DNA of 64,000 nt, taken from contig JAFUYQ010000017.1 in the NCBI GenBank assembly GCA_017470485.1, forward strand, positions 1-64,000, written 5' to 3'. The position numbers were made by a program, and so were the translations under genes. Numbering within the stretch: position 1 is the stretch's first letter; each line of letters starts with the position of its first letter. Under the pieces are notes generated by a model. It was not told the origin of the DNA. It ran no database searches and saw only the letters and a list, made by a program, of their open reading frames with translations. Positions 45,759-62,489 of this stretch are shown in pieces. The DNA is from Synergistaceae bacterium. Lineage in GTDB: Bacteria; Synergistota; Synergistia; Synergistales; Aminobacteriaceae.

Positions 45759-46865
45759 TTACAGCAGTATATCAATCGTGTTCACTCCGTCTGAATAATT
45801 GTGAGTGATTCTTCCGTTAGCGATTCTATTGAGCATTGTTATTCCAAGATGAACATCATCATCTTCGGGAAGGCTGAACGGATTGAACTTCTTTCCGGCG
45901 CATGAAAGGTTAATCACCGTTGAGCCGTCAGCCTCCGAGTAGGATATGCCGATGTCGATGTTCACGTTCTGCCCGTCAGGGTAACACCCTGAAATCATCT
46001 CGTAGATTAATTCCTCGCAGCAAAGTTCGAGACGGTACGAAAGACTTGGGGCTAATCCGTATTTCTCTGAGAAATTGTGAATCATTCCCTGCATTTCGAG
46101 GAGGTCAAAATCCTTCTGCCTTATCTCATAGCTGAAGTATTTTAATTTCCTGATGAATGCGATTGTCTTCTCGCCCTTCGGATTGTCGAATATCTCGGAC
46201 GGGCTGCCCTGCTCGTAAATTCCCCTGTCAGCGAAAAATAACACCCTGTCGGCTACTTCACGCGCAAAATTCATCTCATGCGTTACGATAATCATCGTCA
46301 TGTTGTGTTTCGTGAGCATTCGTATCATCGCGAGGACTTCTCCGACCATCGTCGGGTCTAACGCGCTCGTAGGCTCATCGAAAAGAAGAACTTTAGGATT
46401 CATCATGAGCGAACGGCAGATAGCTATTCTCTGCTGCTGGCCGCCTGAGAGTTTATCGGGCATTGAGTGAGCCTTAGAGGTAAGGCCGACCTTCGAGAGC
46501 CATTCCATTGCATGTTCTTCGGCCTCCTTACGGGTCATTCCTGCGAGTTTGACGGGCGCAAGGCATAAATTATCCATAACGTTCATGTGCGAGAAAAGAT
46601 AGAACTTCTGATAGACCATGCCCATTTTACGGCGTATCCTGTTCACTTCCGCGCCGGGTGCGGTGATCTCCTCCCCGTCAATGAATACATGACCGCTGTC
46701 CGGCCTCTCAAGAAGTGCAAGCGACCGTAGGAATACACTTTTTCCGCAGCCCGAACCGCCGATTATAGCTATTCTCTCGCCCTCATCAATATTGAGGCTG
46801 ACATCATGAAGAACGCTGAGGCTTCCGAAAGATTTGCAGAGGTTGTGAACTTCTATAAGGCTCAT
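45759..46865 (-). CDS. Polar amino-acid ABC transporter ATPase fused to a GHKL-like domain
   Basis: A 368-residue ATPase. Residues 1-245 are a typical GlnQ/HisP-type cassette: Walker A GGSGCGKS near 36, Q-loop VYQKF, signature LSGGQQQR, Walker B VLLFDEPTSALDP, H-loop VTHEM. Residues about 260-368 are an extra domain: helical YRLELCCEELIYEMI, then a strand-rich end with VHLGITMLNRIANGRI. It resembles RsbW/histidine-kinase ATPase folds, but the N-box asparagine is not visible. Such a fusion suggests regulated transport or a signalling output. The start overlaps the permease stop by four bases (ATGA). Confidence 0.88.
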   Translation of the reverse strand: MSLIEVHNLCKSFGSLSVLHDVSLNIDEGERIAIIGGSGCGKSVFLRSLALLERPDSGHVFIDGEEITAPGAEVNRIRRKMGMVYQKFYLFSHMNVMDNLCLAPVKLAGMTRKEAEEHAMEWLSKVGLTSKAHSMPDKLSGGQQQRIAICRSLMMNPKVLLFDEPTSALDPTMVGEVLAMIRMLTKHNMTMIIVTHEMNFAREVADRVLFFADRGIYEQGSPSEIFDNPKGEKTIAFIRKLKYFSYEIRQKDFDLLEMQGMIHNFSEKYGLAPSLSYRLELCCEELIYEMISGCYPDGQNVNIDIGISYSEADGSTVINLSCAGKKFNPFSLPEDDDVHLGITMLNRIANGRITHNYSDGVNTIDILL

Positions 46866-47539
46866 GATAATGCTTCCTTTCTGTTCTGAAGGTAGTCGCT
46901 GAACGCGAAAAGACCGTGAACTATGTACGCAAGCGCAAGATATATCAGCATTCCGATTATTATCGTAATCATCGGCTGCATAGTTCTTGACGCTATGTTA
47001 TTGATTACGCGCGTGAGGTCAGTTATTGAGACGTAGCCCACAACGCTCGTCCACTGAATGAGATTCACGACCGTTGACTGATAAACGGGCTTTGCGATTC
47101 TTATGACCTGCGGAAGCGTTATGAGCCTGAACGCCTGCCATGCGGAGAATCCCAATGTCCTCGCGGCCTCTACCTGTCCTTTGTCGGTGGCACTGACTGA
47201 GGCTCTGAGGAGTTCGGCGACATGAGCGGCGACATTCAGCGAGAAAGTTATGACGGCGATGGTGTTCGCGTCAAGAGGACTCCTTGCGAATATACCGTAG
47301 TACATGAGCATTAAGAGCATTAAGACGGGCGAGCCTCTGAGAACAACGATGTAGATTTTTGCCGGAATGCTGAGAATTTTGAGGCTTGACATTCTGAGAA
47401 GGCATATGAACGCTCCGAGAAGAGTACCGAATATCATCGAGAACAATGAGATATATATGGTAGCGTTGAGGCCCTTCAGTATCGTCATGTACGAACCGCC
47501 CTGAATGAGAATCTTGTAGAGAATTTCGTTTAGGGGCAT
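46862..47539 (-). CDS. Polar amino-acid ABC transporter permease
   Basis: A 225-residue permease of the HisM/GlnP type with five or so transmembrane helices, a GLNATIYISLFSMIFG start, VVLRGSPVLMLLML, and the EAA loop VEAARTLGFSAWQAFRLITLPQ that contacts the ATPase. It is translationally coupled to the ATPase. No second permease is present, so it probably acts as a homodimer. It would take up polar amino acids or similar compounds brought by binding proteins such as those encoded nearby. Confidence 0.92.
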   Translation of the reverse strand: MPLNEILYKILIQGGSYMTILKGLNATIYISLFSMIFGTLLGAFICLLRMSSLKILSIPAKIYIVVLRGSPVLMLLMLMYYGIFARSPLDANTIAVITFSLNVAAHVAELLRASVSATDKGQVEAARTLGFSAWQAFRLITLPQVIRIAKPVYQSTVVNLIQWTSVVGYVSITDLTRVINNIASRTMQPMITIIIGMLIYLALAYIVHGLFAFSDYLQNRKEALS

Positions 47540-47713: not shown

Positions 47714-48541
47714 TTGAGGAAAAGTCTTATTGCCGCAATCCTTGCTGTGATGTTGTCTGCCGGAGTTTCTTCGGCTGAAGTGGCGGGTATGCTCATGCTG
47801 TTTGACAATGATGCCAAAGAAGATTATGCCACCGGCATTTTACGAGCTTCAAAGAAAACGTTTTTTATTGGTGTCGATGTCAGCACACTGGAACTGAAGT
47901 ATTATGATTCTCTTTCCGCAATGGTGCTGGCTCTGGAAAAAGGCGAAATTGATTACCTCTATCTTCCGCAGTTAGTAGGCAGTTACGTTCTGGAGAACAA
48001 CAGTGAGTTTATGCTGAAGGGTGCTTCTTGGTATCCTAAGATGATAGCGGATACTCTGAATTTCGGCTTCCTTGAGAAAAACGCTGAACTCATGAAGAAG
48101 TTTAACGATGCTCTCGCAGGCATGAAAAAAGACGGGACACTTGCAATTCTTGAGAAGGCTTACGTTAATAATTACGGCTTGACTGAAAAGCCTGAGTTGA
48201 TCTTCGAGAATTTCGACGGCGCGGAAACAATTACCGTAGCTCTGACCGGAGATCTTCCGCCGGTGGATTACGTTGACGCTGATGGAGTTCCGGCAGGGTT
48301 TAACGTTGCGGTGCTTGCGGAAATAGGCCGCCGTCTTAACGTCAACATCAAGACGATTCAGGTTGATACAGGAGCAAGATTAGTGGCTCTGACATCTGGC
48401 CGTGCTGACGCGGCGTTCTGGTTCCGCGAAAATTTAGGAGTGAAGATGTTTTCATCGCTTATGTTCGAAAGGCCGAAAGGCGTACTTATTTCCGAACCGT
48501 ATTATGCTTGGAACGAGTTTTACTTCATAGGCAAGAAATAA
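47714..48541 (+). CDS. Periplasmic binding protein, SBP family 3 with swapped lobe order
   Basis: A 275-residue exported protein (signal peptide KSLIAAILAVMLSAGVSSA). The TTG at 47714 is the start, with AGGAGGA seven bases before it. The first half (YYDSLSAMVLALEKGEIDYL, LNFGFLEKNAELMKKFNDAL, KKDGTLAILEKAY) resembles the end of a normal SBP family 3 protein. The second half (VALTGDLPPVDYVDADG, PAGFNVAVLAEIGRRLNVNI, SGRADAAFWF, SEPYYAWNEF) resembles its beginning. Divergent from the ABC permease-ATPase pair and convergent with four paralogues. Ligand unknown, probably a polar amino acid. Confidence 0.82.
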   Translation: MRKSLIAAILAVMLSAGVSSAEVAGMLMLFDNDAKEDYATGILRASKKTFFIGVDVSTLELKYYDSLSAMVLALEKGEIDYLYLPQLVGSYVLENNSEFMLKGASWYPKMIADTLNFGFLEKNAELMKKFNDALAGMKKDGTLAILEKAYVNNYGLTEKPELIFENFDGAETITVALTGDLPPVDYVDADGVPAGFNVAVLAEIGRRLNVNIKTIQVDTGARLVALTSGRADAAFWFRENLGVKMFSSLMFERPKGVLISEPYYAWNEFYFIGKK

Positions 48542-48545
48542 AAAA

Positions 48546-48582
48546 TTTTCCCCCTTGCAAAACGCGAGGGGGAATTTTTTTT
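48546..48582. terminator. Terminator between convergent binding-protein genes
   Basis: A TTTTCCCCCTTGC / GCGAGGGGGAATTTT hairpin is followed by a T run and preceded by AAAAATTTT, between genes facing each other. Active at least in the forward direction. Confidence 0.85.
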
Positions 48583-48631
48583 GCCCTACAGTATTCGTCA
48601 TGACACTGAGGGGCGATTCACTTTGACGGGC

Positions 48632-49483
48632 TTAATTATCGGCTTTCTTGAGGTGGTAGAACGTGTCGAACTCGTAGTAAGGCTCCGAAAGTATTACTCC
48701 CTCCGGCACGTCAAGCAAAGCGGAAGAACCTCTCCTGTGTTCAAACCAGAAAACAACGTCAGACCTTCCCGAAGAAAGCATGGCGGCTCTCGCTCCCGAC
48801 TCGATGTTCTGGAGCTTAACGTTAAGTCCCAGCCGTCCGCAGATTTCAGCGAGTATAGCGGCGTTGAAGCCCTCAGCTGAACCGTCGGGGGCAATGTAAT
48901 CTATCGGGGGCATGTCTCCTGTTACGGCGGCTTTGATTTCCTTCGCTCCGTCGAACTTCCTGAAGACTACAGGGTCAGGGGTCTTAGTGTTGGGGTCAGT
49001 GATTGCCATTTCCTCCATCATGGCCGTGTTCGAGCCGAGTATGTATTTCCCCTGAAGAGTGATGAGAGTTCCGTCCCTTTTCATCTCAGCTAATGCCTTG
49101 TTGAAGGAGTCGGCAAGCTCTTTGTTATCCGCCTTGAACCCGAACGACAGAAGGAACGGTGATTTCCTCGTGATTACAACGCAGTTAATCAGGTATTCGG
49201 GGTGAAGGTTGAGGAAGTAATCCGCTGTTTCCTCAGGCAGAAGCATCTCGTCAATCTCTCCGGCATTGAGAGCCATTATCATTTGAGTTATTGACTTGTA
49301 GAACGAGAACGTGGGTTTTTCGGGATTGTTGCGCATCATGACAACATGCTCGCTGTTGTCTACGATTTTGCTGAACTCCTCCGGCGTAACGTTGAGGCGT
49401 TCGAGCATTCCGACTCTGTGGCTTGCTGACGCTGATGAGGCGCAGACCAAAAGCAAAACGAAAAGGCAAAAAATTTTCCTCAT
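48632..49483 (-). CDS. Periplasmic binding protein, SBP family 3 with swapped lobe order (copy 2)
   Basis: A 283-residue exported paralogue with signal peptide MRKIFCLFVLLLVCASSASA. First half: FYKSITQMIMALNAGEIDEM, LSFGFKADNKELADSFNKAL and EMKRDGTLITL. Second half: AVTGDMPPIDYIAPDG, AEGFNAAILAEICGRLGLNV, SGRSDVVFWF and LSEPYYEFDTFYHL. AGGAGG precedes the ATG. It is the last of a run of four binding-protein genes after the GHKL-like gene, 15 bases behind copy 3. Confidence 0.85.
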   Translation of the reverse strand: MRKIFCLFVLLLVCASSASASHRVGMLERLNVTPEEFSKIVDNSEHVVMMRNNPEKPTFSFYKSITQMIMALNAGEIDEMLLPEETADYFLNLHPEYLINCVVITRKSPFLLSFGFKADNKELADSFNKALAEMKRDGTLITLQGKYILGSNTAMMEEMAITDPNTKTPDPVVFRKFDGAKEIKAAVTGDMPPIDYIAPDGSAEGFNAAILAEICGRLGLNVKLQNIESGARAAMLSSGRSDVVFWFEHRRGSSALLDVPEGVILSEPYYEFDTFYHLKKADN

Positions 49484-49498
49484 GATTATTATTCCTCC

Positions 49499-50362
49499 TT
49501 AATCTTCGTCAAATCTGAGGTGCATAAAAGTATTCCATTCCAAGTAAGGCTCAGAAAGTATAACATCTTCGGGAGCGTCCTGCTGAGCCTCGAAAGATTT
49601 TCCCGTCTCGTACCAGAAAACAACGTCAGCCTTTCCCGAAACGATAGCGGCAGTTCTTGAGGCAGTATCAACCTGAATGATTTTGATGTTTACTCTGAGA
49701 CGCTTTCCGATTTCGGACAGTACCGCAGTGCTGTAGCCTGCCGGCATTCCCGACTCGTCAATGAAATCAACGGGCGGCAAATCTCCCGTAACAGCCACTA
49801 CGACCGTAGGAGCGTCGGGGTAACTCTCGAAAAGTATGCGTTTTTCCTGTTTCCTCTGACGCTTGCTTATCCCGTAGATGTAATCGTAAGAGTCATCGGG
49901 CGGAAAATTCTTCACGTACTTCTGGAACAATCCCGAAAGCGTGTAGTCGTTCTTCATTGAGCGGAGGGCAGTATTCCATAATTCGCGGAGCTTGGTTCTG
50001 TCCTTCATGAAGCCGAAGCACAAATCCATACGGCCGGAGTCCGACATGCAGCAGGGCGTGTAGCTCTTGTTAGTTTTGAGGAGGTACTCGGCGACATAAT
50101 CAGGCAGAATCATCTCGTCAATATCCCCTCTCGACAGTGCCATCTGCATTTGGGTCAGAGAGTCATAGAACTTTGCTTTGCTTGTTGTGTGGTCGCCGCC
50201 CAAGATTGCCCAGCCCTGAGTCGCCCATGAATTTCTCATGAGGTTAAGGAACTCGTCAGGGGTAGTCTTGAGCCTCGTCAGGAAGCCGACATTATCGGTA
50301 TCAGCACTTGCAGAACCGGCGAGAATTACGCAGAGAATTAGCGCGAATAAAATTTTTTTCAA
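49499..50362 (-). CDS. Periplasmic binding protein, SBP family 3 with swapped lobe order (copy 3)
   Basis: A 287-residue exported paralogue (signal peptide MKKILFALILCVILAGSASA). The mature start GFLTRLKTTPDEFLNLM matches the other copies. Lobe-2-like text is FYDSLTQMQMALSRGDIDEM and LCFGFMKDRTKLRELWNTAL; lobe-1-like text is VAVTGDLPPVDFIDESG, PAGYSTAVLSEIGKRLRVNI and SGKADVVFWYE. It is more divergent than its neighbours in the central linker, which is basic (ISKRQRKQEKRIL). AGGAGG precedes the start; 12 bases separate it from copy 4. Confidence 0.85.
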   Translation of the reverse strand: MKKILFALILCVILAGSASADTDNVGFLTRLKTTPDEFLNLMRNSWATQGWAILGGDHTTSKAKFYDSLTQMQMALSRGDIDEMILPDYVAEYLLKTNKSYTPCCMSDSGRMDLCFGFMKDRTKLRELWNTALRSMKNDYTLSGLFQKYVKNFPPDDSYDYIYGISKRQRKQEKRILFESYPDAPTVVVAVTGDLPPVDFIDESGMPAGYSTAVLSEIGKRLRVNIKIIQVDTASRTAAIVSGKADVVFWYETGKSFEAQQDAPEDVILSEPYLEWNTFMHLRFDED

Positions 50363-50374
50363 GTATATAGCCTC

Positions 50375-51247
50375 CTAGTTATGTATGTAGAAATCCAGAA
50401 AGTCCCGGCTGAATATGTTCCAGCTCCATGAGCCTCCCTTATCAACTTTCTTTCGGAGATGAATGAACTTCTCCCATTCGTAGTAAGGCACCGAAACTAT
50501 AACGCCCTCAGGAATATCAGGCTGATTCTCCGCGCCCTTGACGACCTCGTACCAGAAGACTACGTCCGCTCTTCCTGAGGCAAGCGCGGAACTTCTCGCA
50601 CCCGACTCAATGCTCATAATCTCGATGTTCACTCCGAGACGTTTTCCGACTTCGGCAAGAACCGCCGTACTGAATCCGGCCGGCGTTCCGTCATCGGCCA
50701 TGAAGTCAACAGGAGGCAGATCACCCGTTACCGCAGCGCGCACCGTCTCGGCTCCGTCAAACTTCGCGAACCCGACAGGCTTCGGAGGATTCTTACCGGC
50801 TGAGGCAAGATACATTCCCTCAAGTGCCGACAACGTCCAGTCCGAACGCATTTGCCCGATAGCCTCGCTGAACTTACTGCATAATTCCTGATTGTCAGCT
50901 CTGAAGCCGAATGCCAGTCCCATTCCGCCGGAGTGAAGGACTAAAACGGATTCATACTCAGGATTCTGATTCATTAAGTATTCAGCTGAGACTTCAGGGA
51001 GAACTATGTGATTAATCTCGCCGGCACTGAGAGCCATTTGAAGTGCGTTGAGATTTGGAAAGAATTTCACTCTCACTTCGAGAAGCTCATTATTGGGAGC
51101 AAATGACTTCTGCCATTCCTGAGAAAATGACTCTTCAGTCGAGTTCAGCTTCTCAAGCATTCCGAGAGTTATAACGCGCTTTTCAAGCCCCGCCGACGGC
51201 ACAGCGAGGCTGATTAAAAGCGAAAGTGTAAGCAGAAACTTCTTCAC
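50375..51247 (-). CDS. Periplasmic binding protein, SBP family 3 with swapped lobe order (copy 4)
   Basis: A 290-residue exported paralogue. The GTG at 51247 lies one base after the stop of copy 5 and begins a normal signal peptide (KKFLLTLSLLISLAVPSAG); a TTG 21 bases further up would give an unlikely polar leader. Lobe-2-like part: NLNALQMALSAGEINHI, GLAFGFRADNQELCSKF. Lobe-1-like part: VTGDLPPVDFMADDGTPAGF, VLAEVGKRLGVNIEIM, SGRADVVFWYE, SVPYYEWEKFIHL. Translation is probably coupled to copy 5. The C-terminus is about 20 residues longer than in the other copies. Confidence 0.84.
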   Translation of the reverse strand: MKKFLLTLSLLISLAVPSAGLEKRVITLGMLEKLNSTEESFSQEWQKSFAPNNELLEVRVKFFPNLNALQMALSAGEINHIVLPEVSAEYLMNQNPEYESVLVLHSGGMGLAFGFRADNQELCSKFSEAIGQMRSDWTLSALEGMYLASAGKNPPKPVGFAKFDGAETVRAAVTGDLPPVDFMADDGTPAGFSTAVLAEVGKRLGVNIEIMSIESGARSSALASGRADVVFWYEVVKGAENQPDIPEGVIVSVPYYEWEKFIHLRKKVDKGGSWSWNIFSRDFLDFYIHN

Positions 51248-51248
51248 G

Positions 51249-52181
51249 TTATTTTGACCTGCCCACAACTAAATCAGTGTCCCATTCGTAATAAGGCTCG
51301 GAAAGAATTACCCCGTCAAGGGACGAGTCAATCATTACGTTCTTGAGGTTCTTGCCTTTGAGCTTCTTGGGAGTTTTAAGGCCGTCAGTGTTCCTGTACC
51401 AGAAGACAACATCTGCCCTCTCTGACGCTAACGCCGCTGAACGCCCTCCGGCCTCAACGCTGATTACACGGATAGTCCGCTTCAAACGCTTTCCGATTTC
51501 GGATAGTATAGCGGTATTGTAGCCTGTAGCCCTGCCGTCAGCAGCTATGTAGTCGATAGGCGGAAGGTCTCCTGTTACGGCGATTTTGATGGGTTTTGAG
51601 CCTTTGAAGTCTGTGAATTTTACTTCCTCCGGAACTGTTGTGCCTATGTCCTTGATGTAACGGTTTTCGAGAACGGTAAGTGTTCCGTCTTTTTTCATGG
51701 CTTTGATGGCGTTGTCGAAGTCATTTTTGAGGGCAGTATTTCCCTTCTTGAAGCCGAATGAAATTGTCGATGGCATCATGTTCAGCGAGAACTGAATCTC
51801 ATAATCCTCCGGGCTGGTAGCCATGAGGTAGGTTACGACAGGTTCAGGCAAAACCATTTCATCAATTTTTCCGGCACGGAGAGCCATCTGCATTGAGAGC
51901 AGAGAATCATAGAAATGAACTACCCTTCTTGACTTCACAAGTTCGGAGAGGAAGCCGTCAAGTAAATCGTAGTCTTCCCATTCCTGTTTTGCCGATTCCT
52001 CGTTCATAAGGGGCGTAAGAGCCTTCCTCAAATCGTCGAGTGCCTCCTGAAATTCGCCCTCAGTAGTTCCCAAGTATGTCAGGATTCCTGAATCAACCCT
52101 GTCATTCTTGGCGGCCATGCTGATACCGCAGAGCGCCAGCGCGAGAACAACTCCCAAAATAACGCATAATAATTTTTTCAC
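51249..52181 (-). CDS. Periplasmic binding protein, SBP family 3 with swapped lobe order (copy 5)
   Basis: A 310-residue exported paralogue, the longest of the five, with signal peptide MKKLLCVILGVVLALALCG. An insert of about 25 residues follows TPLMNEESAKQEWEDYD in the first half. Conserved text: FYDSLLSMQMALRAGKIDEM, ISFGFKKGNTALKNDFDNAI, KKDGTLTVLENRYI, then VTGDLPPIDYIAADGRATGY, AILSEIGKRLKRTI, SERADVVFWY and SEPYYEWDTDL. It starts 11 bases after the GHKL-like gene on the same strand, with AGGAGG upstream, and leads the four-gene binding-protein run. Confidence 0.85.
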   Translation of the reverse strand: MKKLLCVILGVVLALALCGISMAAKNDRVDSGILTYLGTTEGEFQEALDDLRKALTPLMNEESAKQEWEDYDLLDGFLSELVKSRRVVHFYDSLLSMQMALRAGKIDEMVLPEPVVTYLMATSPEDYEIQFSLNMMPSTISFGFKKGNTALKNDFDNAIKAMKKDGTLTVLENRYIKDIGTTVPEEVKFTDFKGSKPIKIAVTGDLPPIDYIAADGRATGYNTAILSEIGKRLKRTIRVISVEAGGRSAALASERADVVFWYRNTDGLKTPKKLKGKNLKNVMIDSSLDGVILSEPYYEWDTDLVVGRSK

Positions 52182-52192
52182 TGCTAGACCTC

Positions 52193-52822
52193 CTAGAATT
52201 TTTTGATTACGACAAGTTCTATTTTGTCTTTTTTGATTCCGACCTGAACATCATCAGCTATGTTAGCGATGATTGATTTTTCGAGTTCGTCCCATGAGTC
52301 GGGGTCGGTATCCTTACCGGCTTCAACGTCTTCCTTGTACTTCTGCATTGACCACGAATATAACGCTTCACTCATTCCGTCATCAGGCACTCCGAGTGCG
52401 CCGTATGTGAACATTCCTGTGCCGTACTCGGCCTGAAGTTTGAAGCTCTCCTCAATGCCGTACAATCCTGCCTCGAACATTCCGCGAATCTTGTCCATGA
52501 TTCCGAGACGGGCTGAATTTCTGCCGCTGGTTGATACCGAGATTAATTCTTGGCGTTTTCCGTAATCAAGTTCAGATTTTGCCTCAAGGTGAAGGGTGCA
52601 TGTTCTGTCCTCCTCCTGCTCAATCCAGAACTCCGCGCTGAACTCACCGGCGATTGAACGCACCATGCTGAACATTTCTTCAGCGAGAAGACGGGCTTTC
52701 AGTACGTCCTTCGAGGAAAGCTGCATAAGGCTCACGGTTTTTTCTGTCATTGTGAGCGCTTCAGGCATTCCCGAACCGGAATTTTCGATACTAATCCGCT
52801 CGGTTGTGATTTTCTGTATCAT
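52193..52822 (-). CDS. GHKL/RsbW-like ATPase-fold protein of unknown role
   Basis: A 209-residue soluble protein without signal peptide. After a strand-rich start (EALTMTEKTVSLM) a helix reads DVLKARLLAEEMFSMVRSI, followed by strands AEFWIEQEEDRTCTLHLEAKSEL. A final strand pair (VGIKKDKIELVVIKKF) completes what looks like a GHKL ATPase/anti-sigma fold. The usual N-box asparagine is absent, as in the extra domain of the ABC ATPase 6 kb away, and the two segments look related. It sits between an alcohol dehydrogenase and the binding-protein genes. It may sense or regulate the transport system; this is inference. Confidence 0.5.
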   Translation of the reverse strand: MIQKITTERISIENSGSGMPEALTMTEKTVSLMQLSSKDVLKARLLAEEMFSMVRSIAGEFSAEFWIEQEEDRTCTLHLEAKSELDYGKRQELISVSTSGRNSARLGIMDKIRGMFEAGLYGIEESFKLQAEYGTGMFTYGALGVPDDGMSEALYSWSMQKYKEDVEAGKDTDPDSWDELEKSIIANIADDVQVGIKKDKIELVVIKKF

Positions 52823-55020: not shown

Positions 55021-58000
55021 TTAGCGTTTCCGTCTTAACGCTCCGATTAACGGGACTATTAACGCCAGCACTGACAATCCCGAAACGCAGCCGCCGCTTG
55101 GAGCTTCTACACCCTGAACGTCAGACGAATACACCGCCGAGATTACGGGCGCGTAAGTCGTTCCGGCCTCAAGGTACGCGCCGACATTGATTATTCTGTC
55201 CTCCGGCACTTTGTCGGTGATGTTGAGATTCGAGTCGTAGAAATCGTAATCCGCCTCATCTTCCGCGCTGTCCTCAACCGCTCCCGAAGCGTTCCTCGTG
55301 AACGGGTGCCATCTCAGAGCATAGCCGATTGGAACGTCTTCCGAAAGATGAATATCAGCGAAGCTCACAATGTCCTCGTACGTGTAGAACGCCGAGACAT
55401 CAACGCTTATTTCGGGAAGTACCGCCGCTAATACGCCATGATTCGCCGTAACCCTCGAAATCTCGTAAGCCGTCAAAGCCGCAACTCCTCTCGGCGCGCC
55501 CTCATGAGCTTCTTTCTTGGGAGTCGGGGAGGGTTTCGAGTCATCATCTTTCCTGCCCGTGTCATCATCGCCCTTTGAACTGTCATCTTCAGGGACAGCC
55601 GGCGCGATCATGACGAGGTAACTTTTCGCGTCCTTGCCTGCCGCGTTACGGGCTTCCAGAGTGAACGCGAATGTGTCCGCTTTTGTCGGCGTTCCGAAGA
55701 TGTAACCATTCGACGCTACAGACAAACCGTCGGGAAGTTCACCCTCAACTACTGACCAGTAAACAGGATTCGTACCCTCAGAACTCAATGTTACTGTCTC
55801 ATAAGGAGTGTTAATCTTTCCGTCCGGCAGATCTACGGTCTTAACTGACGGCATTTCACTTACTTTGAGAATGAACTGCCTGCTTTCCGTTGAGCCGCCC
55901 GACTTTATCGTAACATCGATTTTGAAATCTCCTGTCTTAGTTGGTACGCCTGCTATATCTCCTGACCGCGAGATAGTCAATCCGAGTGAAGCGTCCGCGC
56001 TGACTGCCCATTCCGCCGGAAGGTCATCGGCCAGCTTCACAGTGTAAGCGTACTGCACTCCCTTCACAGCGTCCGGAAGAATGTATGACGCTGAAGCTAT
56101 CTGTGGCTTCTCGTCAATGGTATGTTCCAGCGTAATATCATCTGACCCCTTGCGGTTATAGGCGATGAGCTGGAACTCATATTCTCCCGTTCCCGTCATT
56201 CTTCCGCAGAATACAGGCGTGTTGTCCTCAGACTTAATGCTCGTTCCGGCCGGAAGATCTCCGCTGACCTCGAATGTAATCGGCCCGCTTCCCGATACGG
56301 GGATAGGAAGATAAAAATCAACGTTCCTGTAAAGTCTGTGAGTGCTGTCAAGAGTGCTGGGGTCAAAGGTAAATTCAGGCTTCTCGTCCTTCACTATGAG
56401 TCTTACCTCACGGCTCGTAATGCCGTAGTCATTGCTGGCTGTTACGATTAGTTTGACATCGCACGAGATGGCCGGTGTTCCGTAAATCTTCAGCCTGCTC
56501 GTTGAAGGCTCGTTATAATAGTCGGCAAGCCTGAACTTCAAGCCCTTTGGAAGTCCTTTAACGTCCCATGAAATCGGTCTTGTCCCGTCCGCTGTGAATA
56601 CGTCAAAAGAATCTGTCGCTGGTACGCTTTCCATTGCTGGAGCCGCGTAAAGCCTTCCGACCGTTCCTTCATAAAGAGTGCCGGTATTTGATATTACAGG
56701 AGGCTGAGGCGTTCTCACGGTGATAGTGAAATCTTTTGAGTCAACACCTGAGTCATTTGAGGCAACGACCTTGAATTTGTATGTGCCTGCCGGCAGCGAC
56801 TTGAAGCACATCAATCCTGTAAGCCTTTCAAGCGTGAAGTTGAAACCAGACAGAATGTCTCCGCTGTCAATGCTCCAGTACACAGGCCATAACTTATCAT
56901 CAGTAGTCTTGACATCATGAAAAGTCAAATGGCCGGTCGAAATGACATCTATTGATGTAGTAGCCGTGTCAATAACAGGAGCTGGAAGCTCGTCAACGCT
57001 CAACATGATAACAGCTGAGTCATAGCCGTAATCATTCATTGCCGTAACAACTACAGGGAACTGCCCTGCTTCTTTAGGAGTGCCTGAGATCTCGCCTCTC
57101 ACGAAGCTCAACCCTTCGGGAAGATCGCCGTCAATACCCCAGATTATAGGGGCTGAACCATAAGCGTAAAATTCCATTTTGAAACGCTGTCCGGCTGTTG
57201 CCTTGTCAGGTTTAGCGTTCTTAATGACCGGCGGAACATCTTTCGAGTACATCGCTTCCATGAAGTCAAACGCGCCTTTGAGGTCAAGAAATCCATACGT
57301 TGAAGTGCCGTCATCTCGAAGGTATCCGCTGTCCGCTCCGCCGATTATAGCCGCCTTAATCTCTGAGGCTGTAGCCTGAGGATATGCCGATTTCAGAAGA
57401 GTAGCCGCTCCCGTAACGTGAGGAGCCGCCATTGAAGTTCCATTAAATAAGGCGTAAGGGTAATCAACATGCAGTGAGGCATATTTTACGCCTTTACCTA
57501 AAGAGCTTAAATCGATATTCAGGGGAACGGTGCTGTAAATACGCATACCCGGCGCGGCAACATCAACGTATTTTCTGCTGTAATTGCTGAAATATGTACG
57601 CTCAAGCTGTTCATTTGCCGCCGCTACTATAATCGTGTTGTCAATCCCAAGATAGGATTGAGGCTTAACATACCGGCCCTTATACCATCTCGTTGAGCCG
57701 TCTTTGAAATATGTAGAGTACGTAGGAACACCGACTTCATTAGTTTCATTTCCTGCCGCTGCGGATATGACGAGCCTGTTTTTATCGCTGAGTGTCTTTA
57801 TCGCTGACCAAGATGGGTTTTGCTCGGAAGCTGCCTCTTCCGGCGTTAGGTCGCCGTAGCCTCCAATCGAGAAGTTAAGCGCGGCGATATTCAGCTCAGG
57901 GTGTTCATCGAGAAGTTGTGAGACGTAGTTAAACCCGTTAATGATGTCTTCATCTGAGCCGCTTTGCTTCATTACTCTGACTGAAATGATTTTCGCTTTC

Positions 58001-58662
58001 CAGTTTACGCCTGCGACTCCCTGAGCGTTGTTCCCGATGGCGGCAATAGTGCCGGCTACATGAGTGCCGTGAGAGTGTTCATCGAAATAGTCCGCGCTGG
58101 CAGCTCCCGGATTGTTGTAGGTGGCGAAGTTACAGCTGTATTCATGCGAGAAATTGTCCTTTAAGTCGGGGTGGTTGTAATCGACTCCTGTATCCATAAC
58201 GATTACATAGACATCTTCCGAACCTGTAGCCTTGTTCCAGACCTGAGGGGCTTTGATGGCTTCCATTCCCCAAAGTCGGCTGTAGTCCGTGTCATTCGGG
58301 ATATTGACTTCGGGCAGATCGAGCTTAACGATGTGATTCAGCGACGCGGCAACGACATCGGGGCGCGCCAGAATCTCCTTGAGTAATTCATTCTCGTTTT
58401 TTGTGTCCGAATGAACTACCATGAAGATATTGCCGCTGGACTTTGTGAGTGAGTCATAAGTTCTAGTGATGTTGACGTTATGAGCCTCCGCGAACGACTG
58501 GACATCTGAGAGCGATTTCAATCCTTCTGAGTTTGCTGAATGGATTTCCTCTCCTGACGTTTTTCGGAGAACGACAATTACGTCTCCGGGAACGACCTCC
58601 TGAGCGTATGAGGCAGTAACGCAGAGCATGACGAGAAGAATTAATGCCATTATCTTCTTCAT
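55021..58662 (-). CDS. Subtilisin-like (S8) surface protease with SYNERG-CTERM tail, copy A
   Basis: A 1213-residue exported protease. Signal peptide 1-20; I9-like propeptide about 21-115 (VPGDVIVVLRKTSGEEI, NIFMVVHSDTKNENELLKE). The peptidase S8 domain has Asp157 (VMDTGVDYNHP), His198 (HSHGTHVAGT) and Ser410 (FNGTSMAAPHV). Five or so Ig-like putative-Ig repeats follow (LPEGLSFVRGEISGTPKEAG is one), then a charged linker, a 110-residue module shared with the 54187 gene, and the tail SGGCVSGLSVLALIVPL plus RRKR. The ATG at 58662 has AGGAGG upstream. It probably cleaves host or dietary protein at the cell surface. Paralogue of the next gene. Confidence 0.94.
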   Translation of the reverse strand: MKKIMALILLVMLCVTASYAQEVVPGDVIVVLRKTSGEEIHSANSEGLKSLSDVQSFAEAHNVNITRTYDSLTKSSGNIFMVVHSDTKNENELLKEILARPDVVAASLNHIVKLDLPEVNIPNDTDYSRLWGMEAIKAPQVWNKATGSEDVYVIVMDTGVDYNHPDLKDNFSHEYSCNFATYNNPGAASADYFDEHSHGTHVAGTIAAIGNNAQGVAGVNWKAKIISVRVMKQSGSDEDIINGFNYVSQLLDEHPELNIAALNFSIGGYGDLTPEEAASEQNPSWSAIKTLSDKNRLVISAAAGNETNEVGVPTYSTYFKDGSTRWYKGRYVKPQSYLGIDNTIIVAAANEQLERTYFSNYSRKYVDVAAPGMRIYSTVPLNIDLSSLGKGVKYASLHVDYPYALFNGTSMAAPHVTGAATLLKSAYPQATASEIKAAIIGGADSGYLRDDGTSTYGFLDLKGAFDFMEAMYSKDVPPVIKNAKPDKATAGQRFKMEFYAYGSAPIIWGIDGDLPEGLSFVRGEISGTPKEAGQFPVVVTAMNDYGYDSAVIMLSVDELPAPVIDTATTSIDVISTGHLTFHDVKTTDDKLWPVYWSIDSGDILSGFNFTLERLTGLMCFKSLPAGTYKFKVVASNDSGVDSKDFTITVRTPQPPVISNTGTLYEGTVGRLYAAPAMESVPATDSFDVFTADGTRPISWDVKGLPKGLKFRLADYYNEPSTSRLKIYGTPAISCDVKLIVTASNDYGITSREVRLIVKDEKPEFTFDPSTLDSTHRLYRNVDFYLPIPVSGSGPITFEVSGDLPAGTSIKSEDNTPVFCGRMTGTGEYEFQLIAYNRKGSDDITLEHTIDEKPQIASASYILPDAVKGVQYAYTVKLADDLPAEWAVSADASLGLTISRSGDIAGVPTKTGDFKIDVTIKSGGSTESRQFILKVSEMPSVKTVDLPDGKINTPYETVTLSSEGTNPVYWSVVEGELPDGLSVASNGYIFGTPTKADTFAFTLEARNAAGKDAKSYLVMIAPAVPEDDSSKGDDDTGRKDDDSKPSPTPKKEAHEGAPRGVAALTAYEISRVTANHGVLAAVLPEISVDVSAFYTYEDIVSFADIHLSEDVPIGYALRWHPFTRNASGAVEDSAEDEADYDFYDSNLNITDKVPEDRIINVGAYLEAGTTYAPVISAVYSSDVQGVEAPSGGCVSGLSVLALIVPLIGALRRKR

Positions 58663-58673
58663 CTGTGAAAAAA

Positions 58674-58731
58674 CCTCCTGAAGTAAATTTTTTTCAGGAG
58701 GATTATACATTAAGCTGTAGTTTTTTAGTAA
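58674..58731 (-). promoter_or_regulatory. Protease A promoter with a dyad covering start site and ribosome site
   Basis: On the reverse strand TTACTA, 18 bases, TATAAT, then at once CCTCCTGAA, ten bases, TTCAGGAGG. The second arm is the Shine-Dalgarno sequence of the protease. The same arrangement precedes the free propeptide gene at 62901. It may be an operator across the transcription start or, if the start is early, an RNA hairpin hiding the ribosome site. Confidence 0.55.
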
Positions 58732-58820: not shown

Positions 58821-61800
58821 TTAGCGTTTCCGTCTTAACGCTCCGATTAACGGGACTATGAACGCCAGCACTGACAATCCCGAAACACAGCCGCCGCTTG
58901 AGCCTCCGACACCCTGACCATCAGACGAATACACCGCCGAAATTACGGGCGCGTAAGTCGTTCCGGCCTCAAGGTACGCGCCGACATTGATGATTCTGTC
59001 CTCCGGCACTTTGTCGGTGGGGTTGAGCTTAGAGTCGTAGAAATCGCAGTCAGCGTTACTTTCCGCGCTGTCCTCAACCGCCCCCGAAGCGTTCCTCGTG
59101 AACGGGTGCCATCTCAGAGCGTAACCGACCGGCACGTCTTCCGAAAGATGAATATTAGCGAAGCTCGCGATGTCCTCATACGTGTAGAACGCTGAGACAT
59201 CTACGCTTATTTCTGGCAGTACCGCCGCGACTTTAGCGTTATTCGCCGTAACAATCGACATCTCTCCTGCCGTCAAAGATGAAACTCCTCTTGATGTTCC
59301 CTCATGAGCTTTTTTCTGAGGCGTCGGCGATGGGGTGGGGTCATCGTCTTTTTTGCCGGAGTCATCATCGTCCTTTTTCTTGTCGTCCTCCGGCTTATCC
59401 GACGCTATTTTGACGGTGTAAGTTCTTCTGGCTTCGCCGACCTCGTTCGTTACCTCCAGAGCGAACGTGAATGTTCCAGATTTTGTCGGCGTTCCGAAAA
59501 TGTAACCGTTCGCCGCTAACGACAAACCGTCAGGAAGTTTCCCCTCAGTGTCCAGCCATAAGCAAGGCTTAGTACCGTCCGCGCTCAATGCCGCCGTTTC
59601 ATAAGGAGTGTTCACCTTTCCGTCCGGCAGGCTTTGAGTCGTAACTGAGGGCTTTTCCATGACTTTGAGAGTGTACATTCTGTCTTCCGTCAAATCGCCT
59701 GACGTGATATAGATATAGGCTTTGAAATCTCCTGCCTTAGCCGGCAAGCCTTTTATGTCGCCTGACTGAGAGATAGTCAATCCGAGTGACTCGTCAGCGT
59801 AGATTTCCCATTTCGCCGGAATGTCATTGACCAGCTTCACTGTGTAAGCGTACGGCTCTCCCTTCACAGCGTAGGGGAGAATGTATGACGCTGAAGCTAT
59901 CTGAGGTGCCTCGTCAATGGTGTGCGCAAGCGTAATATCTGCCGACCCCTTGTCGTTATAGGCAATGAGCTGGAACTTGTATTCTCCTGTTCCCGTCATT
60001 CTTCCGCAGAATACAGGCGTGCTGTCCTCAGACTTAATTCTTGTTCCCTCTGGAAGATCTCCGCTGACAGCGAATGTAATCGGGCCGCTTCCCGACACGG
60101 GGATAGGAAGGTAAAAATCAACGTTCCTGTAAAGTCTGTGATTGCCGTTAAGGGATTTCGCGTCAAAGTTAAATTCCGGCTTCTCGTCCTTCACTATGAG
60201 TCTTACCTCACGGCTCGTAACACCGTAGTTATTGCTGGCTGTTACGACTAGTTTGACATCGCACGAGGCGGCAGGGATTCCGTAAATCTTCATTCTGCTC
60301 GTTGAAGGCTCGTTCTCATAATTGGCAAGCCTGAAACTCAAACCGTCTGGAAGGTTCTCTACGTCCCACGTAATCGGAAGTGTTCCTTTCGCTATGAACA
60401 CGTCAACAGAATCTGTCTCCGGCACGCTTTCCATAACGGGAACAGCGTAATTCCTTCCGACCATTCCTTCATAGAGAGGCTCTGTGCTTGATGTTATTAC
60501 GGGAGCCTGAGGCTCTCTCACGGTGAGAGTGAAATCTTTTGAGTCAACCCCTGAGAGATTCGAGGCGGTTACTTTGAATTTGTACGTGCCGGCTTTTTTC
60601 GGATAGAACCGCATGAATCCTAATGTGCTGAAAAATTCAAGTTTGAAGTTGTCCGGCACCGCGTCTTTGCTGTCAAAGTCCCATCTCACAGGCCATAACT
60701 TGTCATCTGTGGTCATTAAATCATGATGAATCTGTTTGTCTGTCATAACCACGTCTAATGACATACTCTTCCCGTCAATAACGGGAGCTGGAAGCTCGTC
60801 AACGCTCAGCGTGATAAAAGACGAGGCTTTATAGCCGTAGGTTTTGGCGTGATTATTCACCGCCGTAATGACTACAGGGAACTGCCCTGCTTCCAGAGGA
60901 GTGCCTGAGATCCTGCCGTTGTCGAAACTTAACCCTTCGGGAAGCGTCCCTTCAATATCCCAGCTTACAGGGGCTGAGCCGTAAGCGTAAAATTCCATTT
61001 TGAAACGCTGTCCGACTTTCGGTTTGTCCGGCCTCACGTCTTGAATTACTATCGGCGAATCTTTCGAGTACATGTCTTCCATGAACTCAAACGCCCCTTC
61101 AAGGTCGAGAAGTCCGTAAGCTGAAGTGCCGTCATCTCGAAGGTATCCGCAGTCCGCTCCGCCGACTATCGCCGCCTTAATCTCTGAGGCTGTGGCCTGA
61201 GGATACACCGATTTCAGAAGAGCCGCCGCTCCGGCAACGTGAGGAGTCGCCATCGAAGTCCCATTCAATAGCGTGTAAGGGTAATTAGCTCTCAGTGAGG
61301 CGTAATTTACGCCTTTGCCTACACGGCTTAAAGTGAGATTCAGAGGAATGGTGCTGTAAATATTCATGCCCGGCGCGGCAACATCAACATATTTTCCGCT
61401 GTAATTGCTGAAAGATGTGCGCTCAAGCTGTTCATTTGCCGCCGCTACCGTAATCATGTTGTCGATCTCAAGATAGGATTGGGGGGCACCGTAAGTTCCC
61501 TTATACCATCTTCTCGCGCCGTTTCTGAAAGACGTAGAGTACGTGGGAACACCGACTTCAAGAGCGTCATTTCCAGCTGATTTGGCTATAATGAGCCTGT
61601 TCTTATCGCTGAGGGTCTTTATCGCTGACCAGTATGGGTCTTCCGTGAGAACTGCCTGTTCCGGTGATAAGCCCACGAAGCCTCCAACCGAGAAGTTCAA
61701 CGCCGCGATATTCAGCTCAGGGTGTTTATCAAGAAGTTGTGAGACGTAGTTAAACCCGTTAATGATGTCCCCATTTGAACCGCTGCCGTTTTTATTCAGT

Positions 61801-62489
61801 ACCCTGACTGAAATGATTTTCGCTTTCCAGTTTACGCCCACGACTCCCTGAGCGTTGTTACCAATGGCGGCAATAGTGCCGGCTACGTGAGTGCCGTGTC
61901 CGGCTTCATCGTGATAGTCTTCACTGGTAGCTCCCGGATTGTTGAAGGTGGAAAAGTTACAGCTGTATTCGTGCGAGAAATTGTCCTTTAAGTCGGGGTG
62001 TGTGTAATCGACTCCTGAATCCATAACGACGACATAGACATCTCCCGAACCTGTAGCCTTGTTCCAGACCTGAGGGGCTTTGATGGCCTCCATTCCCCAA
62101 AGCTGGTTATAGTCCGTGTCGTTCGGTATCTTGACTTCGGGGAGATCGAGCTGAACGATGTAATTCAGCGACGCGGCTATGACATCGGGGCGTGCTTGAA
62201 TCTCTTTGAGAAGCTCATTCTCGTTTTTTGTGTCCGAATGAACTACCATGAAGATATTGCCGCTGGACTTTGTGAGTGAGTCATAAGTTCTAGTGATGTT
62301 TACGTTATGAGCCTCCGAGAACGACTGGACGGCTGAGAGCGATTTCAATCCTTCTGAGTTCGCTGAATGGATTTCCTCTCCTGACGTGTTGCGGAGAACG
62401 ACAATTACGTCTCCGGGCACGGCTTCCTGAGCGTATGAGGCCGTAACGCAGAGCATGACGAGAAGAATTAACGCAAGTATCTTCTTCAT
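58821..62489 (-). CDS. Subtilisin-like (S8) surface protease with SYNERG-CTERM tail, copy B
   Basis: A 1222-residue paralogue of copy A, in tandem, with the same order: signal peptide (MKKILALILLVMLCVTASYA), I9-like propeptide, S8 domain with Asp157 (VMDSGVDYTHP), the histidine in AGHGTHVAGT and Ser412 (LNGTSMATPHV). Ig-like repeats follow (TLPEGLSFDNGRISGTPLEA), then an Asp/Lys-rich linker, the shared 110-residue module and SSGGCVSGLSVLAFIVPL plus RRKR. First and last 150 residues are nearly identical to copy A, while the Ig-like region has drifted, which may widen substrate range. AGGAGG precedes the ATG. Confidence 0.94.
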   Translation of the reverse strand: MKKILALILLVMLCVTASYAQEAVPGDVIVVLRNTSGEEIHSANSEGLKSLSAVQSFSEAHNVNITRTYDSLTKSSGNIFMVVHSDTKNENELLKEIQARPDVIAASLNYIVQLDLPEVKIPNDTDYNQLWGMEAIKAPQVWNKATGSGDVYVVVMDSGVDYTHPDLKDNFSHEYSCNFSTFNNPGATSEDYHDEAGHGTHVAGTIAAIGNNAQGVVGVNWKAKIISVRVLNKNGSGSNGDIINGFNYVSQLLDKHPELNIAALNFSVGGFVGLSPEQAVLTEDPYWSAIKTLSDKNRLIIAKSAGNDALEVGVPTYSTSFRNGARRWYKGTYGAPQSYLEIDNMITVAAANEQLERTSFSNYSGKYVDVAAPGMNIYSTIPLNLTLSRVGKGVNYASLRANYPYTLLNGTSMATPHVAGAAALLKSVYPQATASEIKAAIVGGADCGYLRDDGTSAYGLLDLEGAFEFMEDMYSKDSPIVIQDVRPDKPKVGQRFKMEFYAYGSAPVSWDIEGTLPEGLSFDNGRISGTPLEAGQFPVVITAVNNHAKTYGYKASSFITLSVDELPAPVIDGKSMSLDVVMTDKQIHHDLMTTDDKLWPVRWDFDSKDAVPDNFKLEFFSTLGFMRFYPKKAGTYKFKVTASNLSGVDSKDFTLTVREPQAPVITSSTEPLYEGMVGRNYAVPVMESVPETDSVDVFIAKGTLPITWDVENLPDGLSFRLANYENEPSTSRMKIYGIPAASCDVKLVVTASNNYGVTSREVRLIVKDEKPEFNFDAKSLNGNHRLYRNVDFYLPIPVSGSGPITFAVSGDLPEGTRIKSEDSTPVFCGRMTGTGEYKFQLIAYNDKGSADITLAHTIDEAPQIASASYILPYAVKGEPYAYTVKLVNDIPAKWEIYADESLGLTISQSGDIKGLPAKAGDFKAYIYITSGDLTEDRMYTLKVMEKPSVTTQSLPDGKVNTPYETAALSADGTKPCLWLDTEGKLPDGLSLAANGYIFGTPTKSGTFTFALEVTNEVGEARRTYTVKIASDKPEDDKKKDDDDSGKKDDDPTPSPTPQKKAHEGTSRGVSSLTAGEMSIVTANNAKVAAVLPEISVDVSAFYTYEDIASFANIHLSEDVPVGYALRWHPFTRNASGAVEDSAESNADCDFYDSKLNPTDKVPEDRIINVGAYLEAGTTYAPVISAVYSSDGQGVGGSSGGCVSGLSVLAFIVPLIGALRRKR

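Follow-up and report, generated by a model that had tools for sequence, protein, structure and literature searches.

Evidence for a family of circularly permuted SBP_bac_3 substrate-binding proteins next to GlnP-GlnQ importer genes in Synergistaceae

In substrate-binding proteins (SBPs) of the GlnH type, an arginine in the T.ER segment and an aspartate of lobe 2 hold the alpha-carboxylate and the alpha-amino group of the ligand. Such domains may also be joined to the translocator: GlnP of Lactococcus lactis carries two canonical substrate-binding domains (SBD1-SBD2) fused in tandem to the permease (PDB 6h30, PMC8025302). Natural circular permutation is reported, in a passage of PMC2395249, for the glycine-betaine SBPs OpuAC and ProX and for molybdate SBPs. 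TpMglB-2 of Treponema pallidum ('Type Ic / Cluster Bc') is another naturally permuted SBP, for which ligand binding and conformational change were shown (PMC4990184).

Here we describe a group of SBP genes in a Synergistaceae contig, of which a stretch of 64,000 nucleotides (the window) was analysed. The original prediction spoke of five tandem proteins. All five open reading frames (ORFs) are present; only four are in tandem, on the minus strand, and SBP 1 lies on the plus strand and converges with them. Its predicted start at 47714 holds up as a TTG codon. The parts of the cluster are as follows.

45759-46865, minus strand: GlnQ-type ATPase with a degenerate-looking HATPase_c_2-like C-terminal domain (residues about 246-368)
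46862-47539, minus strand: GlnP-type permease (BPD_transp_1; HEQRo_perm_3TM)
47714-48541, plus strand: putatively permuted SBP 1, in convergent orientation to the other four; starts at TTG, with AAAGGAGG upstream
48548-48574, plus strand: strong hairpin resembling a terminator, between the converging genes of SBP 1 and SBP 2 (a consensus match only)
48632-49483, minus strand: putatively permuted SBP 2, structure predicted
49499-50362, minus strand: putatively permuted SBP 3, with profile, PDB-chain and half-profile matches
50375-51268, minus strand: putatively permuted SBP 4, with profile, PDB-chain and half-profile matches
51249-52181, minus strand: putatively permuted SBP 5, with a longer insert in lobe 2
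52193-52822, minus strand: conserved neighbour protein with no Pfam match, in 19 of 78 related SBP loci

No canonical-order SBP was found beside the window GlnP gene, and the path from the SBP genes to GlnP is broken by the inverted SBP 1 gene. Apart from one tRNA, no Rfam element was found near the cluster. The family of the 52193-52822 protein is highly conserved, has an invariant DELEKSIIAN motif and stands beside SBP clusters in the 19 loci; its reading as another HATPase was not supported, the hhalign probability being 10.7. Two neighbouring subtilase genes (55021-58710 and 58821-62489, minus strand) encode proteins that each have about 1,225 residues and putative Ig domains; as context only, they are compatible with a peptide-using lifestyle.

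Order of the two halves and the effect of re-cutting

In all five proteins, Pfam SBP_bac_3 (PF00497) matched two stretches: the N-terminal half aligned to the end of the profile, and the C-terminal half to its positions 1-63. The matches scored 53.8-65.1 bits against a curated cut-off of 26.4. The order was also swapped in matches to NCBIfam TIGR01096 and to PDB chains; for example, residues 186-280 correspond to positions 15-104 of 4zv1, and residues 63-145 to its positions 147-228. Each protein thus runs from lobe 2 and the lobe-1 return to the start of lobe 1, and the canonical order (lobe 1, lobe 2, lobe-1 return) is absent from the five and from 202 homologues. These matches bear out the original prediction that the N-terminal half is the end of a GlnH-type protein and the C-terminal half its beginning, in every copy. 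Chance resemblance was rejected on the basis of E-values of 1e-14 to 1e-18 per protein, the 202 homologues with the same order, and controls, in which half-profiles run on normal proteins returned the normal order.

We compared family profiles by hhalign, as encoded and after re-cutting to the canonical order. As encoded, the window-type family gave two matches to the canonical family (18-148 to profile positions 117-233, and 158-263 to 2-102), and no collinear alignment was obtained. After re-cutting, a single match covered 1-246 against 3-233 (E 1.6e-26), and the scores of 100 and 90 became 179; in the family that keeps the amino-acid clamp, scores of 160 and 160 became 311. With TIGR01096, re-cutting of clamp-bearing relatives merged the two half matches and raised the bit scores from 124.1 to 129.8 and from 113.2 to 116.6. 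With a single-family profile, the gain for window proteins was small or nil (53.0 to 54.2 and 61.7 to 60.2). The breakpoint falls at about profile positions 92-117, which is the hinge from lobe 1 to lobe 2, and each protein contains one copy of each half, not two complete SBP domains. At the level of sequence profiles, these comparisons show both the permutation and its breakpoint.

AlphaFold2, with input alignments made only of sequences gathered in this analysis, predicted one compact domain for SBP 2 (48632-49483; pLDDT 92.3, pTM 0.88) and gave similar confidence for a clamp-bearing relative, L012:4519-5322 (pLDDT 95.8, pTM 0.89). Foldseek searches against PDB matched type II SBPs and related folds, and the halves of the L012 model matched closely (rmsd 1.0-1.2 over 75-84 columns); for neither model was there a full collinear match above TM 0.55. 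Against the tandem SBD1-SBD2 of GlnP (6h30), the L012 model aligned over 232 columns with an rmsd of 19.5, a value to be expected if the halves belong to separate domains in GlnP but share a single domain in the permuted protein. The collinear search alone is no proof of permutation, because sequential alignment of these pseudo-symmetric proteins still gives TM values of 0.3-0.55. The confidence of the models and the half matches are consistent with the same fold having different termini, and each chain is predicted to fold alone into the usual two-lobed clam-shell.

Because the re-cut sequences align collinearly near full length, the native ones do not, and a single compact domain is predicted, we consider the five proteins to be genuine circular permutants of an SBP_bac_3 (type II, cluster F) SBP with new termini at the hinge, with a probability of about 0.88 on profile and model evidence. 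In such a protein, a linker would join the old C- and N-termini, and the new termini would lie in the hinge between lobe 1 and lobe 2.

Distribution, ligand clamp and importer partners

Half-profiles built from nine proteins were run on all ORFs of 207 loci. The permuted order (N-half, then C-half) was found in 279 ORFs, repeats included; only three entries had the canonical order, and these stand for two proteins of a single genome (L126, L130). In a second set, about 30 canonical SBPs drawn from across the phylum were assigned the canonical order. Deduplication left 202 distinct permuted proteins from related Synergistales loci: 162 belong to the window type, 31 carry the amino-acid clamp motif, and simple motif rules placed the other 9 in neither class. 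The 78 loci listed from a GTDB-based collection belong to Synergistales metagenome-assembled genomes, mostly of rumen or gut origin. Of the 43 genomes in the genus of the window, 42 carry window-type copies, as do three of a neighbouring genus, at 1-13 per genome (lower bounds); none was found at E 1e-15 elsewhere among 188 Synergistota genomes. The source genome has at least nine, on three contigs, as well as three permuted SBPs with the clamp motif (L012:4519-5322, L011:3877-4740 and L121:7825-8601). The window-type proteins are divergent, with a median pairwise identity of about 40%. To look for permuted forms outside Synergistota, plasmids were searched by tblastn with a clamp-bearing protein. 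Of 27 records with a cover of 80% or more, the 25 that were listed all matched in two pieces, the pattern that canonical or tandem proteins would give.

The two classes differ in the residues of the clamp. Arg240 and Asp85 (numbering of the L012 protein) are kept in 31 of 31 clamp-bearing proteins. In the window type, the position of the arginine is a gap in 155 of 162 proteins and that of the aspartate is proline in 157, so that this type lacks the clamp of GlnH-like amino-acid SBPs; it has near-invariant motifs of its own (TGD.PP.D, FW and S..Y). Since the clamp arginine and aspartate are missing, the ligands of the window-type proteins are probably not plain alpha-amino acids but, for example, peptides or modified amino acids.

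In the window, the parts of a PAAT-type importer, GlnP and GlnQ, are adjacent to the SBP genes, and conserved operons are found elsewhere. In related genomes, three to five window-type SBP genes run directly, with tight spacing, into GlnP and then into a GlnQ whose C-terminal domain is the same (L046, L082, L088, L089, L079 and L054). Locus L081 has the gene order of the window (ADH, the 52193 family, SBPs, GlnP, GlnQ) but no inverted SBP. The clamp-bearing L012:4519-5322 has GlnP and GlnQ directly downstream, in a standard SBP-permease-ATPase operon. From this arrangement, the permuted SBPs would be secreted and would hand their ligand to the GlnP-GlnQ importer encoded next to them, several receptors being offered to one translocator; we think it fairly likely that the window cluster supplies the adjacent GlnP-GlnQ in this way, with a choice of receptor.

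An unlikely, though not negligible, alternative concerns only the role of the window type: the permuted fold may have left transport and serve as a sensor or regulator without an importer partner. The lack of the clamp arginine and aspartate in nearly all of the 162 proteins would agree with this, as would several copies that lie away from any transporter (C18, C21), but the tightly spaced GlnP-GlnQ operons conserved in many genomes argue against it.

The C-terminal domain of GlnQ (residues 246-368 of 45759-46865) is conserved in the genus and resembles HATPase_c_2 (RsbW-like), to which 30 of the 37 members of the family could be matched, at best with E 2.7e-7; the match of the window GlnQ, at E 0.003, does not reach the curated cut-off. 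The asparagine of the N-box was not seen in the alignment of the tails, and a PDB profile search with the tail gave nothing significant. Judging from its sequence, this HATPase-like tail looks degenerate, and the chances that it is regulatory seem to us about even. Membrane proteins that lack an ABC domain can carry a similar domain at their C-terminal end (L042:2797-3642, plus strand, 282 aa; L077:3441-5234, plus strand, 598 aa).

Fused chains and a possible origin of the permuted order

In distant relatives, 1 to 12 permuted units precede the permease in one chain of up to 3249 aa. One-unit fusions are encoded at L122:5489-7027, L241:1431-2981 and L242:1417-2910, an eight-unit fusion at L124:6167-12922 (plus strand, 2252 aa) and a twelve-unit fusion at L244:1358-11104 (plus strand, 3249 aa); the giant permease of L246:1144-7923 (plus strand) falls within this group of 8-12 units (2252-3249 aa). 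The fused (NC)n-GlnP proteins are followed by an ATPase of the same kind as that of the window. In L243:2495-5191 (plus strand), permuted SBP, permease, ATPase and HATPase-like tail share one frame of 899 aa, apparently a whole importer half in one chain.

The pairing of lobes in the long chains is ambiguous, because a chain can be parsed as n permuted units or as n-1 canonical units with two orphan halves. This parsing of the 2-12-unit chains gives some room to the reading that the chain does not close on itself, so that the long chains are canonical-phase units with orphan end lobes, or lobe 2 pairs with lobe 1 of another molecule in a domain-swapped dimer; a loose domain-swapped dimer of a relative, the Thermotoga ArgBP, is cited in a passage of PMC10087775. 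However, the single-unit proteins, whether standalone or fused to one permease (L122, L241, L242 and L243), have only one copy of each half, which leaves either the permuted pairing or a swapped dimer, and the two standalone proteins that were modelled are predicted to be compact monomers with high pTM. We therefore regard a chain that is not self-closing as improbable.

One possible explanation of how the permuted order arose comes from the best PDB sequence match of the L012 protein, the tandem SBDs of GlnP (6h30): the protein is collinear with residues 94-333 of these SBDs, from lobe 2 of SBD1 into lobe 1 of SBD2. This match is in keeping with a tandem duplication that later lost its two ends. 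The permutation probably arose from tandem SBD copies, in which the first lobe 1 and the last lobe 2 would have been lost to leave the permuted unit. In the best tree of the re-cut sequences, three changes of order are needed, and a single clade of the permuted forms was not rejected (p-AU 0.253).

Duplication with deletion, by which a permutation would be expected to arise, together with the loss of clamp residues in the window type, could also suggest that the proteins are remnants of two tandem SBP genes with truncated and decaying halves and no functional fold, but this pseudogene-like reading is hardly credible and largely refuted, because each protein has exactly one copy of each half, the motifs are strongly conserved, the predicted fold is confident, 1-13 copies are kept per genome in 42 of 43 genomes of the genus, and the median dN/dS is 0.12. 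This median comes from 27 usable pairs, in which differences at codon positions 1, 2 and 3 were 0.18, 0.12 and 0.49; by these sequence measures, the permuted proteins are under purifying selection.

Comparison with known systems

Taken together, these observations allow a tentative picture, somewhat doubtful as a whole, of a multi-receptor importer specific to a Synergistaceae lineage: its permuted SBP_bac_3 units, present as 1-13 separate copies per genome or in fusions of up to 12 to one permease, would derive from phase-shifted tandem SBDs; the window-type receptors would have ligands of a class other than plain amino acids; and the degenerate HATPase-like tail of the ATPase would gate transport. 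The permutation itself extends natural circular permutation to the large family of amino-acid SBPs. With standalone proteins, one-unit fusions, long chains and an all-in-one transporter as living stages, the duplication-and-loss route becomes testable. How a single translocator is shared by several receptors is a question for which a permease with 12 of them provides an extreme example. Automatic annotation by profile match labels the permuted proteins 'SBP family 3' and so masks the permutation.

The original prediction knew of no description of such a family. For SBP_bac_3 this stands within the open-access library that was searched, where we found no description of permuted members or of chains of permuted units; it does not extend to other SBP families, of which permuted members have been published (PMC2395249, PMC4990184).

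Compared with the GlnH/ArtI/HisJ-type SBPs and their GlnP-GlnQ partners, both halves, the permease and the ATPase are of the same families, and the clamp-bearing permuted relatives (L012:4519-5322) keep the T.ER arginine and the lobe-2 aspartate in standard operons; the permuted proteins differ in the swapped halves, and the window type also in the absence of the clamp residues. As in L. lactis GlnP, SBDs are fused in tandem to a permease, and the permuted unit is collinear with a stretch across two of them; however, there are two canonical SBDs there, whereas here a chain of 1-12 units opens with lobe 2 and closes with lobe 1. OpuAC, ProX and the molybdate SBPs share natural circular permutation with the present proteins, but belong to other SBP families in which it was recognised by structure comparison, and the passage of PMC2395249 that reports it does not mention tandem chains. 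TpMglB-2 is likewise a naturally permuted SBP, but it is a sugar binder of the type I fold in which three N-lobe strands are placed at the C-terminus and a fourth hinge crossing is made, whereas in the Synergistaceae proteins the chain appears to be cut at the hinge.
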